From positions 62,001 to 126,000 of the forward strand of contig VGZO01000001.1 in NCBI GenBank assembly GCA_016872555.1: a DNA stretch of 64,000 nt. Direction: 5' to 3'. Below the pieces are notes generated by a model. That model made no database searches. It worked only from the letters and a program-made list of their open reading frames with translations, and was not told the origin of the DNA. Below are positions 36,153 through 45,112 of the stretch, piece after piece; positions within the stretch are counted from its first letter, which is position 1, and every line of letters starts with the position of its first letter. The position numbers were made by a program, and so were the translations under genes. This stretch comes from Planctomycetota bacterium. Lineage in GTDB: Bacteria; Planctomycetota; Planctomycetia; Pirellulales; UBA1268.

Positions 36153-36222
36153 CTTTGGACTTGGGCCTTTGGACTTGGGCCTTTGGACTTGGGCCTTTGG
36201 ACTTGGGCCTTTGGACTTGGGC
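36153..36222 (+). repeat. 14-bp tandem repeat, five perfect copies
   Basis: The unit ctttggacttgggc is repeated five times without a mismatch between tRNA-Arg and ruvC. It is markedly more AT-rich than the surroundings, and 14 is not a multiple of three, so it is not coding. No inverted repeat of any length is formed. Such minisatellites vary in copy number by slippage. Confidence 0.95.
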
Positions 36223-36252
36223 CAGCGCGGCGGCAACCGCTAGTCTGCCCCC

Positions 36253-38893: not shown

Positions 38894-39841
38894 GTGGGAC
38901 AGGCAGCGCACGCCGCGCCGGCGCTGAACGACCCTCCCGCGGCGACGGCGCTGCTGTTTCCCGGTCAGGGCGCGCAGTCGGTCGGGATGCTCGGCGCGTG
39001 GTGCGACGTTCCCGAGGCACTCGATCTGTTCGATCGCGCCAGTGCGCTCCTCGGCTACGACCTCGCCGAAGTCTGCCGCAACGGCCCGGCCGCACGGCTC
39101 GATTCGACGGCCGTGAGCCAGCCGGCGATCCTCGTCACCAGCCTCGCGGCGCTCGAGGTCCTGCGGCGCCGCCCCGGGGGGCTGCCCCCGGCCCTGGTCG
39201 CCGTCGCCGGCCTGTCACTCGGCGAATACACCGCGCTGTCGTTCGCGGGTGCCCTGCAGTTCGAGGACGCCGTCCGCCTCGTCGACGCGCGGGGCCGGGC
39301 GATGCAGGACTGCGCCGACGCCACTCCCGGCGGGATGGTGGCCGTGCTCGGGCTGGAGCGCGAGCAGGTCGCCGGGCTGTGCGCGGCCCACCGCGACGGC
39401 GACGTGCTCGCCGTGGCCAACGTCCTCTGCCCCGGCAACGTCGTCGTCAGCGGCGGGCTGGCGGCCTGCGACCGTCTCGCCGCGGCCGCCACCGCCGCCG
39501 GGGCGATGAAGTGCGTGCGGCTCGACGTCGCGGGTGCCTTCCACACGCCGCTCATGGGGCCGGCGCGCGAACGCTTCACCGCGGCCCTGGCGGCGACACC
39601 CATCGAGCCCCCGCGGATCGCGGTGATCAGCAACGTCGATGCCCGCCCGCACCACGACCCGAACGAGATCCGCGGCCTCCTGGCACGGCAGCTGGTCGGG
39701 GTGGTCGAGTGGCAGGCGTCGATGGAGCATCTGCTCGGTGCCGGAATCCGCACGATGGTCGAGGTCGGACCGGGCCGCGTGCTCCGCGGATTGATGAAGC
39801 GGATCGACCGCCGCGTGGCGGTCGCCGGCGTCTGTGATTGA
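38894..39841 (+). CDS. fabD: Malonyl-CoA:ACP transacylase
   Basis: A 315-residue FabD that moves malonyl groups from CoA to ACP. F-P-G-Q-G-A-Q is near residue 22, the active-site elbow is G-L-S-L-G-E-Y with Ser108 (the usual H at position two is L), and the base is His217 in A-F-H-T-P-L-M. It starts with GTG, four bases after rpmF, and ends with TGA at 39839-39841 just before fabG. An Arg in the malonyl-binding region follows in the D-A-R-G-R-A-M-Q stretch. The substitution of the elbow His is unusual but occurs in some homologues. Confidence 0.94.
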   Translation: MGQAAHAAPALNDPPAATALLFPGQGAQSVGMLGAWCDVPEALDLFDRASALLGYDLAEVCRNGPAARLDSTAVSQPAILVTSLAALEVLRRRPGGLPPALVAVAGLSLGEYTALSFAGALQFEDAVRLVDARGRAMQDCADATPGGMVAVLGLEREQVAGLCAAHRDGDVLAVANVLCPGNVVVSGGLAACDRLAAAATAAGAMKCVRLDVAGAFHTPLMGPARERFTAALAATPIEPPRIAVISNVDARPHHDPNEIRGLLARQLVGVVEWQASMEHLLGAGIRTMVEVGPGRVLRGLMKRIDRRVAVAGVCD

Positions 39842-39887
39842 CGGTGCGCTGCCGCGGAGCCGCGGCGGGGCCGAGGGGAGGGACCAG

Positions 39888-40667
39888 ATGGCCACCGAAA
39901 CCGGACAGCCCCCCGCCCGCCTGCGCGTCGACCTCACGGGGCAGGTGGCGATGGTCACCGGGGCCTCGCAGGGGATCGGCCGCGCGATCGCCGAGACGCT
40001 CGCCGCCAACGGCGCGACGGTCGCCCTCGTGGCCCGCTCGGCGGCCAAGCTCGACGAGGTCGCGGCCGCGATCCGTGCCGCCGGCGGTCGTGCCGAAAGC
40101 TTCCCCTGCGACGTGTCGAAGGCGGCCGACGTCGCCGCCGTCGTCGAGGCGGTCCATGCCGCGCTCGGTCGGATCGACATCCTCGTCAACAACGCCGGCG
40201 TGACGCGCGACACGCTCCTCCCGCGGATGAGCGACGAGGAGTGGGACGAGGTGATCGCCACCAATCTCCGCGGGCCGTTCCTGTTCACCCGGGCGGTGAG
40301 CCGGCCGATGATGCAGCAGCGCTACGGCCGGATCGTCAACGTGGCGAGCGTCTCCGGTCTGATCGGGAATCCCGGCCAGGCCAACTATTCGGCATCGAAG
40401 GCCGGCCTCGTCGGCCTGACGCGGACGGTCGCCAAAGAGCTGGCAGGGCGCAAGATCACCGTCAATGCCGTTGCCCCCGGCTTCATCGCCAGCGACATGA
40501 CCGCCGCCCTCGGTCCGGCGCTGCTCGACGAGGTGAAGAAGCGCGTGCCGGCGAAGCGACTCGGCGAGGCGTGGGAGGTTGCCGAGGCGGTGCTGTTCCT
40601 CGCGTCGCCGGCAGCGGCTTACGTGACGGCGCAGGTGCTGACCGTCGACGGCGGGTTGATCGGCTGA
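39888..40667 (+). CDS. fabG: 3-oxoacyl-ACP reductase
   Basis: A 259-residue short-chain dehydrogenase that reduces beta-ketoacyl-ACP with NADPH. T-G-A-S-Q-G-I-G-R is the dinucleotide loop, N-N-A-G-V-T-R the next, and the catalytic set is S (near V-A-S-V-S-G) with Y-S-A-S-K. T-V-N-A-V-A-P-G-F-I and a V-D-G-G C-terminus match FabG. I chose ATG 39888 because GGGGAGGG sits just upstream; a GTG at 39834 that overlaps the fabD stop would add 18 residues. It is part of the rpmF-fabD-fabG-acpP-fabF cluster. Confidence 0.94.
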   Translation: MATETGQPPARLRVDLTGQVAMVTGASQGIGRAIAETLAANGATVALVARSAAKLDEVAAAIRAAGGRAESFPCDVSKAADVAAVVEAVHAALGRIDILVNNAGVTRDTLLPRMSDEEWDEVIATNLRGPFLFTRAVSRPMMQQRYGRIVNVASVSGLIGNPGQANYSASKAGLVGLTRTVAKELAGRKITVNAVAPGFIASDMTAALGPALLDEVKKRVPAKRLGEAWEVAEAVLFLASPAAAYVTAQVLTVDGGLIG

Positions 40668-41060: not shown

Positions 41061-41300
41061 GTGGCTTCCGTCCAAGAACGGGTGATCGACATCGTCGCGT
41101 CGCAACTCGGCGTGAGCAAGGATCAAATCACCCCCCAGACCTCCTTCATCAACGATCTCGGTGCCGACTCGCTCGACACCGTCGAGTTGGTGATGGAGCT
41201 CGAAGAAGAGTTCGAGATCAACATCCCCGACGACGCTGCCGAGAAGATCCAGACGGTCGGGCAGGCGGTCGAGTTCATCGAGAAGCACCAGGCGGCCTGA
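41061..41300 (+). CDS. acpP: Acyl carrier protein
   Basis: A 79-residue acidic four-helix protein with the phosphopantetheine site [10 protein letters not shown], Ser37 being the attachment point, followed by [13 protein letters not shown]. It carries growing acyl chains for FabD, FabG and FabF. The start is GTG 41061, eight bases after a strong GAGGAG site. No alternative start is needed, because V-Q-E-R-V-I-D-I-V is the usual first helix. Codon use is strongly optimised, as expected for an abundant protein. Confidence 0.95.
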
Positions 41301-41409: not shown

Positions 41410-42648
41410 ATGAAGCGGCGCGTGGTGGTGACGGGGCTGGGCGTGGTGACGTCGCTCGGCAGGGCCATCGACACCTTCTGGGACCGGCTCGTGAGCGGCG
41501 CCAGCGGGGTTGGCCCGATCACGCTGTTCGACGTGACGGGGTTCCGCGTCCAGTTCGGCGGCGAGGTGCCCTGGCAGGGGGAGTCGGAGGGCATCGCCAA
41601 CCCCAAGGAGCTGCGCCGGCTCGACAGGTTCACCCAGTTCGCGATGGCCTCGGCGATCGACGCGGTGCGTGATTCGGGGATCGACTTCGCCACCGAGGAG
41701 CCGTACCGGTGCGGCGTCGCGATCGGCTCGGGGATCGGTGGGCTGTCGGAGTTCGAGGCCCAGCACGAGCGCCTGCTCACCAAGGGGATCGACAAGGTCT
41801 CGCCATTCACGATCCCGAAGCTGATGGTCAATTCGGCGAGCGGGCATGTCTCGTCGATGTACGGCATCAAGGGGCCGAACTTCGCCGTCGCCACCGCCTG
41901 CGCCAGCGCCGGCAACGCGATCGGCGAAGCGCTGCGGGTGATCCGCTCGGGGGACGCCGACGTGATGATCACCGGGGGGAGCGAGGCCGCCCTGACGCCG
42001 ATGGGGCTGGCCGGTTTCCAGAACATGCGGGCGCTGTCGTTCCGTACCGAGGCCCCCCAGGCCGCCAGCCGCCCCTTCGATCGGGACCGCGACGGCTTCG
42101 TGCTCGCCGAGGGGGCGGGCGTCGTGGTCCTCGAGGAGTACGAGCACGCCCGGCGCCGTGGCGCCCGGATCCACGGCGAGCTGCGCGGGTACGGCGCCAG
42201 CGGTGACGCCGGCCACATCACCCAGCCCGACGAAGAGGGGCGGGGAGCCGCCCGGGCGATGCGGATGGCGCTCGAGGACGCCGAGCTCGCGCCAGATGCC
42301 GTCGACTACATCAACGCCCACGGCACGAGCACGCCGCTGGGCGACAAAGCCGAGACGGTCGCCATGAAGCACGTCTTCGCCGCCCACGCGGCGCGGCTGG
42401 TGATCTCGAGCACCAAGAGCCAGCTCGGCCACACGCTCGGCGCCAGCGGGGGCATCGAACTGGTGGCCTGCGCGCTGTCGCTGGGGCGCGGCGTGATCGC
42501 CCCGACGATCAACCTCGACAACCCCGACCCGGACTGCGACCTCGACTACACGCCCAACGTCGCCCGCGAGGCCCGTGTGAGGGTGGCGATGAGCAACAGT
42601 TTCGGGTTCGGCGGCCACAACGCGTCGTTGGTGCTCGCGCGCGTGTGA
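41410..42648 (+). CDS. fabF: Beta-ketoacyl-ACP synthase II
   Basis: A 412-residue KAS II with a complete triad: Cys164 (codon at 41899-41901) in A-T-A-C-A-S-A-G, His in N-A-H-G-T-S-T-P-L-G-D, and His in K-S-Q-L-G-H-T-L-G-A-S-G. It elongates acyl-ACP with malonyl-ACP. It starts 109 bases after acpP and is followed by a secreted protein gene and a Cys-less paralogue. The C-terminal N-S-F-G-F-G-G-H-N motif is intact. Confidence 0.96.
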   Translation: MKRRVVVTGLGVVTSLGRAIDTFWDRLVSGASGVGPITLFDVTGFRVQFGGEVPWQGESEGIANPKELRRLDRFTQFAMASAIDAVRDSGIDFATEEPYRCGVAIGSGIGGLSEFEAQHERLLTKGIDKVSPFTIPKLMVNSASGHVSSMYGIKGPNFAVATACASAGNAIGEALRVIRSGDADVMITGGSEAALTPMGLAGFQNMRALSFRTEAPQAASRPFDRDRDGFVLAEGAGVVVLEEYEHARRRGARIHGELRGYGASGDAGHITQPDEEGRGAARAMRMALEDAELAPDAVDYINAHGTSTPLGDKAETVAMKHVFAAHAARLVISSTKSQLGHTLGASGGIELVACALSLGRGVIAPTINLDNPDPDCDLDYTPNVAREARVRVAMSNSFGFGGHNASLVLARV

Positions 42649-42740: not shown

Positions 42741-43736
42741 ATGGCGGTATGGCGGATCACCCCCGGAGCGTGCCTCGGCACCGTCGCGCTGGCCGCGGCG
42801 GCCCTGCTCGCGGCGCCCCCTGGCCGGTGCGATGGCCCGTTGCCCGCGGCGGCGGGGCAGGTGTGGCAGGAGCACGACATCCGGCCGTTCACCGCCGCCG
42901 CCGGTCCCGGCAGCGAGCGCCACGTCGTCGATTGGATCCTCCAGGACACCGGCTATTCGACCTGGCACGGGAGCGTCGTCGCCGCGCTGTCCGCCGACGC
43001 CACGGCCGTGCGCTGCTTCCACCAGCCTCCCGTCCAGGAGCGAGTCGGCGAGACCGTGGCCCGATTCGTCGCGGGCTCGGCAGCACCGCACCGGTTCGCG
43101 ATCCGGGTCGTCGGCGTCAAGGACCCCGGGTGGCGCGTCTCGCTCCGCGGGCTGTTGCAGCCGATCCCGGCGGCGACCCCGGGGGTGCAGGCCTGGATCG
43201 CCTCGCGCGAGGAGGCGGCCGTCGTCCTGGGAACCCTCCGCAAACGCCCCGACTTCGCCGAGTTGCCCACCGGGCCGGTGCTCGCCGCCAACGGCGTGCC
43301 GGCGGTCGTCAGCGGGGGGCGGTCGCGACCGTACCTGCGCGACCTCACGCCGCGCCCCGAGGTCTGGCCGGGCTGGCAGCCGTTGTCGGCCAGTTGCGAC
43401 GAGGGATTTTCGATCGACGTGCAACCGCTGCTGTCGACCGACATGGCCGGCGTCGAGGCGGTGATCCGCTGCCGGATCGACCAGGTGGAGCGAATGGCTC
43501 CGCTCCCGGTCGCCGTCGGCGGCACCGGACAGCGGGTGGAGCTCGAGGTCCCGCAGCTGGCGGCGGTGCGCGTCGGAGAGCGGATGCGCTGGCCGGCCGG
43601 CCGGGTGCTCGTCGTCGGCCTGGGGTTGGTCCCGTGGCCGGTTCCAGGGCAGAATGACGCCCCCGTGGTGTCGGCGGTCGCGCCGCGCACCGACGTGGTG
43701 GTGTTCATCGAGCCACGGCTCCGCGATCCGGGGTGA
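42741..43736 (+). CDS. Secreted protein of unknown function
   Basis: A 331-residue protein with a signal peptide (about residues 1-31, cut near GRC-D). The mature part has a beta-rich C-terminus (about 215-330) with the regular pattern V-E-L-E-V-P-Q-L, V-I-R-C-R-I-D-Q-V, R-V-G-E-R-M-R-W, which hints at an immunoglobulin-like or secretin-type fold; I cannot name the domain. A type II/III secretin is unlikely at this size. The ATG at 42741 has GAGG upstream; a GTG at 42645 overlapping the fabF stop would add 32 residues ahead of the signal. It lies between the fabF pair and may be in their operon. Confidence 0.62.
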   Translation: MAVWRITPGACLGTVALAAAALLAAPPGRCDGPLPAAAGQVWQEHDIRPFTAAAGPGSERHVVDWILQDTGYSTWHGSVVAALSADATAVRCFHQPPVQERVGETVARFVAGSAAPHRFAIRVVGVKDPGWRVSLRGLLQPIPAATPGVQAWIASREEAAVVLGTLRKRPDFAELPTGPVLAANGVPAVVSGGRSRPYLRDLTPRPEVWPGWQPLSASCDEGFSIDVQPLLSTDMAGVEAVIRCRIDQVERMAPLPVAVGGTGQRVELEVPQLAAVRVGERMRWPAGRVLVVGLGLVPWPVPGQNDAPVVSAVAPRTDVVVFIEPRLRDPG

Positions 43737-43789: not shown

Positions 43790-45112
43790 ATGCCGGAGAC
43801 CGCAGCCCGCCGAGTCGTCGTCACCGGGATGGGGGTCGTCTGTCCGTTCGGGCTCGCCCCCGCCGACCTCCATGCCGGGCTCCGCGGGGGGCACAGCGCC
43901 GTCGTCCCGATCGAGTCGTTCGACACCGGCGGCCTGCCCCTCCACCATGGCGCCGAGGCCCGCCAGTTCACCGGGGAGATCGACAACTTCGGCCCCCTCG
44001 AAGTGGAGACCAAGAAGGCGATCCGCAAGGGCCTCAAGGTGATGTGCCGGGAGAGCCAGATGGCGGTCGCGGCGGCCCAGCGGGCGCTGTACGCCTCCGG
44101 CCTCGCCGCCGGCGGGGCCGAGCCGGACCGGTTCGGCTGCGTGTTCGGCTCCGACTACATGCTCACGCTCCCCGGGGACTTCACCTCCGGGATCGCGCGC
44201 TGCCGTGGGGCCGACGGCCGGTTCTCCTTCGGGCGCTGGGCCGATGACGGCATGCCGCTGCTCAATCCGCTGTGGCTGCTCAAGTACCTCCCCAACATGC
44301 CGGCCAGCCACATCGCGATCTACAACGACCTCCGCGGGCCGAGCAACTCGATCACGATCCGCGAGGCCAGTGGCCATCTCGCGGTCGGTGAGGCGACGAT
44401 GACGATCCAGCGCGGTGCCGCCGACGTGATGCTCGCCGGTGCCACCGGCACGCGCATCCACCCGATGAAGACCGTCCACGCCCTGCAGTCGGAGCAGGTC
44501 GCGACGGGGACCGACGATCCCACCGGGTGGAGCCGGCCGTTCGACCGGCTGCGGCGGGGGATGGTGCTCGGCGAGGGGGCGGCGGTGCTGGTCCTCGAGG
44601 AGCTCGGCCACGCCCGGGCGCGGGGTGCGACGATCCACGGCGAGGTGCTTGGCCACGCGGCGCGGCAAGCGAGCGATCGCCTCGCCCTCGGCCTGCGGCG
44701 GCCGGCGCTGGCGATGGCGATGCGCCGGGCCCTCGAGGCTGCCGGTCTCGAGCCCGGTGGGCTCGGGCATGTCCACGCGCACGGCTTGAGTACGGTGGGG
44801 TCGGATCGCGATGAAGCCGAAGCGCTGGCCGAGGTCTGCGGCCCCCGCCTAAGCGATATACCGGTCGTCGCGGCGAAAGCCAACTTCGGCAATCTCGGCG
44901 CCGCCAGCGGATTGGTGGAGACGATCGCCAGCCTCGAGGCGCTCCGCGAGGGAACGCTCTTTCCGCTTCGCAACTCCACCGCGCCGGATCCGGCCTGCCC
45001 GATTCGTCCGGCGGTGGCCGGCGATCGTGCGGGGCGCACGTTCATGTCCTCGTCGGTCACGCCCCAGGGGCAGGCGGCGGCGGTGGTGATCGGGTTGCTC
45101 GAGCGCGCCTGA
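43790..45112 (+). CDS. Ketosynthase homologue lacking catalytic Cys and one His (KS-beta/CLF-like)
   Basis: A 440-residue thiolase-fold protein close to FabF. R-V-V-V-T-G-M-G-V-V-C-P-F-G opens it, and the fold signatures G-E-G-A-A-V-L-V-L-E-E and H-A-H-G-L-S-T remain. At the nucleophile position the sequence reads T-I-R-E-A-S-G-H, so Glu192 replaces Cys. The second His motif is K-A-N-F-G-N-L-G, so His is Asn. The first His is kept. It cannot condense chains by the normal route; a role as a chain-length-factor-like partner or malonyl-ACP decarboxylase fits known KS-beta/KSQ proteins. I chose ATG 43790; a GTG at 43733 also exists. Confidence 0.83.
   Translation: MPETAARRVVVTGMGVVCPFGLAPADLHAGLRGGHSAVVPIESFDTGGLPLHHGAEARQFTGEIDNFGPLEVETKKAIRKGLKVMCRESQMAVAAAQRALYASGLAAGGAEPDRFGCVFGSDYMLTLPGDFTSGIARCRGADGRFSFGRWADDGMPLLNPLWLLKYLPNMPASHIAIYNDLRGPSNSITIREASGHLAVGEATMTIQRGAADVMLAGATGTRIHPMKTVHALQSEQVATGTDDPTGWSRPFDRLRRGMVLGEGAAVLVLEELGHARARGATIHGEVLGHAARQASDRLALGLRRPALAMAMRRALEAAGLEPGGLGHVHAHGLSTVGSDRDEAEALAEVCGPRLSDIPVVAAKANFGNLGAASGLVETIASLEALREGTLFPLRNSTAPDPACPIRPAVAGDRAGRTFMSSSVTPQGQAAAVVIGLLERA

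Follow-up and report, generated by a model that had tools for sequence, protein, structure and literature searches.

We have identified, in planctomycete DNA, a FabF-fold ketosynthase (KS), here named KSE, that carries a glutamate at the place of the catalytic cysteine and is maintained under purifying selection. Chain-length factors (CLFs) are known mainly from secondary-metabolite clusters, where they lie beside their KS; KSE is by contrast a near-universal, single-copy and apparently dead KS that an entire order, Pirellulales (hereafter the order), encodes in its core fab-nusA region. With modest confidence, we read it as a catalytically dead, CLF-like heterodimer subunit that docks acyl carrier protein (ACP), most likely as the partner of KSC, a second Cys-type KS of the same genome. 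KSE belongs to a lineage of independent origin whose active site has gained an acid, and its gene is split from that of the KS whose tandem partner was its ancestor.

An altered active site in the fab-nusA region

The window, the whole stretch of 64,000 nucleotides that was analysed, holds fabD, fabG, acpP, fabF, a secretin-like gene, KSE, nusA, infB and rbfA in that order (Table 1). KSE is a protein of 440 amino acids with an ATG start and about 33% identity to the window's FabF. Pfam matches both ketoacyl-synthase halves (2e-32 and 2.6e-18), and the AlphaFold2 monomer (pLDDT 88.5) has the FabF fold, with a Foldseek TM of 0.84 to FabF that places KSE in the thiolase/KS fold. The NCBIfam fabF equivalog model scores it at 240 bits, below the cutoff of 494.

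Table 1. Genes of the window that bear on KSE
Feature	Coordinates	Strand	Basis
fabD, malonyl-CoA:ACP transacylase	38894..39841	+	Pfam PF00698
fabG, 3-oxoacyl-ACP reductase family	39834..40667	+	Pfam adh_short_C2
acpP, acyl carrier protein, start inferred	41061..41300	+	DSLDT phosphopantetheine motif; conserved synteny
fabF, with all catalytic residues (TACAS, His, His, Lys); alternative candidate partner	41410..42648	+	NCBIfam fabF, 598 bits
Secretin-like secreted protein	42741..43736	+	Foldseek matches secretins, 2e-7
KSE, Cys-less FabF-fold ketosynthase	43790..45112	+	Alignment, Pfam, NCBIfam, AlphaFold2

In the alignment, Cys164, His304, Lys336 and His341 of the window's FabF correspond to Glu192, His331, Lys363 and Asn368 of KSE, the cysteine motif ATACAS being replaced by TIREAS with Glu192 at the cysteine place. 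KSE therefore lacks the Cys-His-His-Lys active site of an active FabF or KAS II, and the FabF gating-loop motif GFGG is also absent. These alignments bear out the preliminary description, which had noted the glutamate, the asparagine at the second histidine and the nearby active fabF, which ends 1.1 kb before KSE, a single unrelated gene intervening. Two cysteines were considered as a displaced nucleophile: Cys86, though nearly invariant, falls opposite Asp72 in the ACP-docking helix of FabF; Cys403 lies outside the active site and is also present in FabF. By alignment, therefore, neither is a candidate nucleophile, and no conserved cysteine maps to the KSE pocket.

The intervening gene encodes a protein of about 330 amino acids that is found just upstream of KSE, on the same strand and 25-511 bp away, in 57 of 80 loci; the two genes stay paired even at loci away from the fab region. 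As its product is secreted and secretin-like, it is unlikely to be a functional partner, and is probably not part of the KSE enzyme. A search for promoter- or terminator-like sites around the KSE gene found none, which carries little weight in a GC-rich genome. Elsewhere in the window, a perfect 14-base tandem repeat of 5.1 copies (CTTTGGACTTGGGC) spans 36153-36223, just upstream of a ruvC-like ORF.

Conservation and selection

All 59 nearest genomes contain a KSE match. Except in a few, whose assemblies are fragmentary, it is a clear orthologue (47-97% identity), and named records assign the relatives to Pirellulales and other Planctomycetota. Across the order, KSE passes a strict threshold in 138 of 148 genomes and KSC is present in 142, each usually as a single copy. 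KSE seemed to be absent from part of family f17, but each of the four low-scoring genomes that were re-checked proved to hold a divergent copy that keeps the glutamate. Records titled Candidatus Kuenenia stuttgartiensis (L184, L187, L191, L204-L206, L208, L210, L212, L240) also contain a Pirellulales-type KSE, at 67-78% identity, and are probably misnamed or contaminated bins.

Glutamate occupies the cysteine position in 64/64 distinct orthologues of the order, asparagine the second-histidine position in 63/64 and the active-site lysine is present in 62/64. The first histidine, described earlier as retained, is indeed present in KSE itself but fails as a family feature: it occurs in only 55/64 orthologues and is lost in nine, to Q, F or R. 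The dN/dS of KSE against near relatives is 0.14-0.16, similar to that of fabD and above that of fabF. An invariant glutamate combined with this ratio identifies KSE as a maintained protein under purifying selection, and with reading frames open throughout and dN/dS about 0.15 we reject a pseudogene or sequencing artefact.

The same residues bear on whether KSE might be a KSQ-like malonyl-ACP decarboxylase that supplies acetyl-ACP as chain starter, as had also been suggested for this gene. A residue longer than cysteine at this position mimics the acylated cysteine, both in KSQ and in FabF mutants C163Q/C164Q, and KSE shares such a residue and, in most members, the first histidine and the lysine. 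FabF Cys-to-Gln mutants undergo a structural shift (PMC4528935). Yet KSE always has glutamate and never the glutamine of KSQ, the second histidine is almost always asparagine, and three of the four members of a divergent sublineage lack both the first histidine and the lysine while the glutamate stays. As the histidine and lysine can be lost without the glutamate, decarboxylation is disfavoured, and we regard it as highly improbable. Glu192 most likely fills a dead site and stabilises the subunit, with no chemistry of its own. The retention of Lys363 and the first histidine in most members is nonetheless more than pure inertness needs, and counts against a wholly inert subunit.

Ancestry and the KSC cluster

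Maximum-likelihood trees (quick search, SH-aLRT support) place KSE together with the acidic KSs that adjoin fabF in sister family f22 (support 99), and these join KSD, a second Cys-less paralogue of the KSE genome, and all tandem partners of KSCs. Glutamate or aspartate stands at the cysteine position in 134 of the 136 members of this acidic planctomycete clade, and KSE shares with it the acid, the PLW[LM]LK segment and monophyly. At the base of the clade lies family f39, whose KS pair bears cysteine; with a Cys-bearing partner in that position, the cysteine was probably lost once. The f39 genes (L172, L173, L147-L151) form a tandem pair with the full Cys-His-His-Lys set in both members, which looks like the state preceding the loss.

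A single clade of acidic KSs and Streptomyces CLFs is rejected (AU p 0.0078), and the acidic planctomycete clade arose apart from those proteins; membership of KSE in the Streptomyces CLF lineage is thereby discarded. From E. coli, ApeR alone entered the trees, as ApeC was too short. The Cys-less paralogues of anammox bacteria, with Val or Phe at the cysteine position, fall on another branch, which sets aside a ladderane assignment for KSE.

KSC is encoded on contig C29 and has a complete Cys active site; KSD lies on contig C30 and has aspartate at the cysteine position, an acid being found there in 15/16 KSDs. Sampling of five sister families showed an acidic KS immediately upstream of KSC in 20/20 genomes, the pair sitting within a dehydratase-ACP-dehydratase cluster. 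Further classes of the phylum also have an acidic KS (Glu or Asp) directly beside a KSC-type gene. Within the order and family f22, 27 of 28 loci instead read HD1-ACP2-HD2-KSC, with no acidic KS gene (neighbours were not recognised at the remaining locus, L267). It is in these two groups that KSE and KSD stand away from the KSC cluster, and both paralogues were found in the examined genomes of these partnerless groups.

The interface glutamates of KSC described below are kept at 28/28 of the same loci. A cluster that has lost its partner gene while KSC retains the interface residues suggests that, in the order and its sister order, the in-cluster partner was relocated, with one copy now beside fabF, and that its role is served in trans. 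In the KSE genome the cluster (L072:4531-7931, contig C29) appears as a second type II fatty-acid-like system of FabA-like, ACP, FabA-like and Cys KS genes, and is order-wide. The genome also encodes, at L336:7565-16663 (contig C43), a multidomain polyketide or polyunsaturated-lipid synthase of 3032 amino acids, with two KS, an AT, three carrier domains, a KR and dehydratase domains.

Interface and ACP-docking signatures

In FabF structures, the dimer interface includes the region of residues ~130-141 (PMC4528935, PMC5206705). In this region acidic KSs carry the segment PLWLLKYLPN, in which the tryptophan is present in 133/136 and the lysine position is basic in 131/136 (K in 121/136, R in 10), whereas KSC has the pattern x-E-x-E-Q-E, with glutamate at three positions in about 90% or more. 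The opposite charges favour a pair of KSC with an acidic KS. The segment of KSE (P160-LWLLKYLPN-169) is nearly unchanged in 64 orthologues, and that of KSD is more diverged. Residues 160-168 are the least confident part of the KSE monomer model, which fits, but does not prove, a segment that becomes ordered only in the dimer.

Docking residues are distributed with a matching asymmetry. In the AcpP-FabF complex, ACP contacts come mostly from the non-acylated KS monomer (PMC7138838), so an asymmetric pair should keep its docking base in the acidic KS. This is what we observe: the position matching E. coli FabF Arg68 has kept its basic residue in 136/136 acidic KSs against only 30% of KSCs, and in KSE the docking residues are K80, K83 and R87. 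These complementary signatures, together with the tandem arrangement of clade members and Cys-type KSs, strengthen the proposal of a CLF-like heterodimer partner that was first made for KSE from its active site.

The probable partner of KSE

From sequence, we infer that KSE would form the inactive half of a heterodimer in which an active Cys-His-His-Lys ketosynthase performs the chemistry. KSE would provide the ACP docking surface, and its interface segment, with the invariant tryptophan, may help to close the partner's acyl tunnel, thereby setting the chains accepted and the chain length. Ancestry and interface residues both favour KSC, whose cluster has lost its partner gene, as the most likely partner. 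Co-occurrence does not decide the matter, because KSC, like KSE, is found in nearly all genomes of the order; KSE-bearing genomes in which KSC is missing are two draft assemblies (G427 and G480), and in a third (G435) KSC is broken at a contig end.

Gene position, in contrast, favours FabF, the partner named in the preliminary description. KSE could be a duplicate recruited to the fab operon as an inactive FabF partner, the FabF-KSE heterodimer tuning primary fatty-acid chain length. The fabF-KSE-nusA arrangement is common to the order and sister family f22, KSE directly follows fabF in several genomes, and of 20 long-flank loci in the order, 14 have fabF and nusA beside KSE, although the other six have no fabF nearby. 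FabF, moreover, has neither PLWLLKYLPN nor ExEQE and keeps its own ACP-docking bases, and the KSE segment is of the type found in KSC tandem partners. Pairing with FabF thus survives through shared gene order, and we consider it rather unlikely.

Pairing of KSE with KSC has its own difficulties. KSE itself neighbours fabF and not KSC, adjacency to KSC being seen in the sister-family clade, and the partner may have changed with the move. KSD, too, could be the real KSC partner, leaving KSE to another KS of the genome, or KSE and KSD could pair with each other. The presence of both paralogues where the in-cluster partner is missing, and the near-constant acid of KSD, speak for a role of this kind; two dead subunits would, however, have no nucleophile between them, and the more diverged KSD interface also argues against these pairings, which appear improbable. 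A broader possibility, tentative and to be held with some doubt, is that the dispersed KSE (by fabF) and KSD act in trans as alternative dead subunits for KSC, or for FabF too, in Pirellulales- and Planctomycetales-like bacteria. If true, switchable KSE and KSD subunits would form a chain-length system that connects primary fatty-acid synthesis to another lipid pathway present throughout the phylum.

Comparison with known systems

The pattern of KSE has been seen before. Rattray et al. (2009) reported Glu163, His298, Leu300, Lys328 and Asn333 in the FabF paralogue RB4527 (NP_866153) of Rhodopirellula baltica, and an Asp/His/His pattern in NP_865682, leaving both functions open (PMC2649909). 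RB4527, compared here through the published active-site table, shares the residue pattern and phylum of KSE; that paper gave the table and a simple tree, with no function or partner (PMC2649909). While the Glu/His/Lys/Asn pattern is thus already reported, the planctomycete Glu/Asp clade, its tandem KSC partner, the relocation of the gene and the asymmetric signatures of docking and interface are new here; none of them appeared in the papers that were searched. Our analysis turns an active-site oddity of 2009 into a testable heterodimer hypothesis, and the KSC cluster suggests that a second type II fatty-acid-like system is conserved across Planctomycetota.

Actinobacterial CLFs (KS-beta), such as the actinorhodin CLF (PDB 1tqy_B), resemble KSE in having a KS fold without the cysteine, which is glutamate in all KSE orthologues, and in having a related family encoded beside an active KS, with a heterodimer expected. 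They differ in lineage, and the failure of the acidic clade to group with proven Streptomyces CLFs counts against a CLF reading in the strict sense of common ancestry. The actinobacterial CLFs have Gln where KSE has an acid, and the Streptomyces CLFs compared here have Asp at the first histidine, whereas KSE keeps the lysine and usually that histidine; unlike CLF genes, the KSE gene also lies apart from the Cys-type KS cluster. KSQ loading domains and malonyl-ACP decarboxylating KSs likewise exchange cysteine for a longer polar side chain, but KSQ has glutamine and keeps both histidines, while KSE has glutamate and an asparagine for the second.

The nearest parallels in organization and in pathway type come from two other systems. 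The FabF paralogues of anammox bacteria (Brocadiales) are, like the KSE group, planctomycete Cys-less KSs in tandem with a Cys-type KS, although they have Val/Phe, Asn and Glu where KSE has Glu, His and Asn (at the cysteine, first and second histidine). An anammox Cys-KS and its adjacent Val-KS (genome G278, L328:1498-4055) are closely homologous to chains B and C in PDB 9s5h/9s5i, which suggests that these entries represent a solved planctomycete KS heterodimer and a structural precedent for KSE. In aryl polyene clusters the short CLF ApeC (PMC8358021) partners a FabF-like KS without being active itself, and the pathway is reducing and fatty-acid-like, as we propose for KSE; ApeC is about half length, whereas KSE is full length with both halves.
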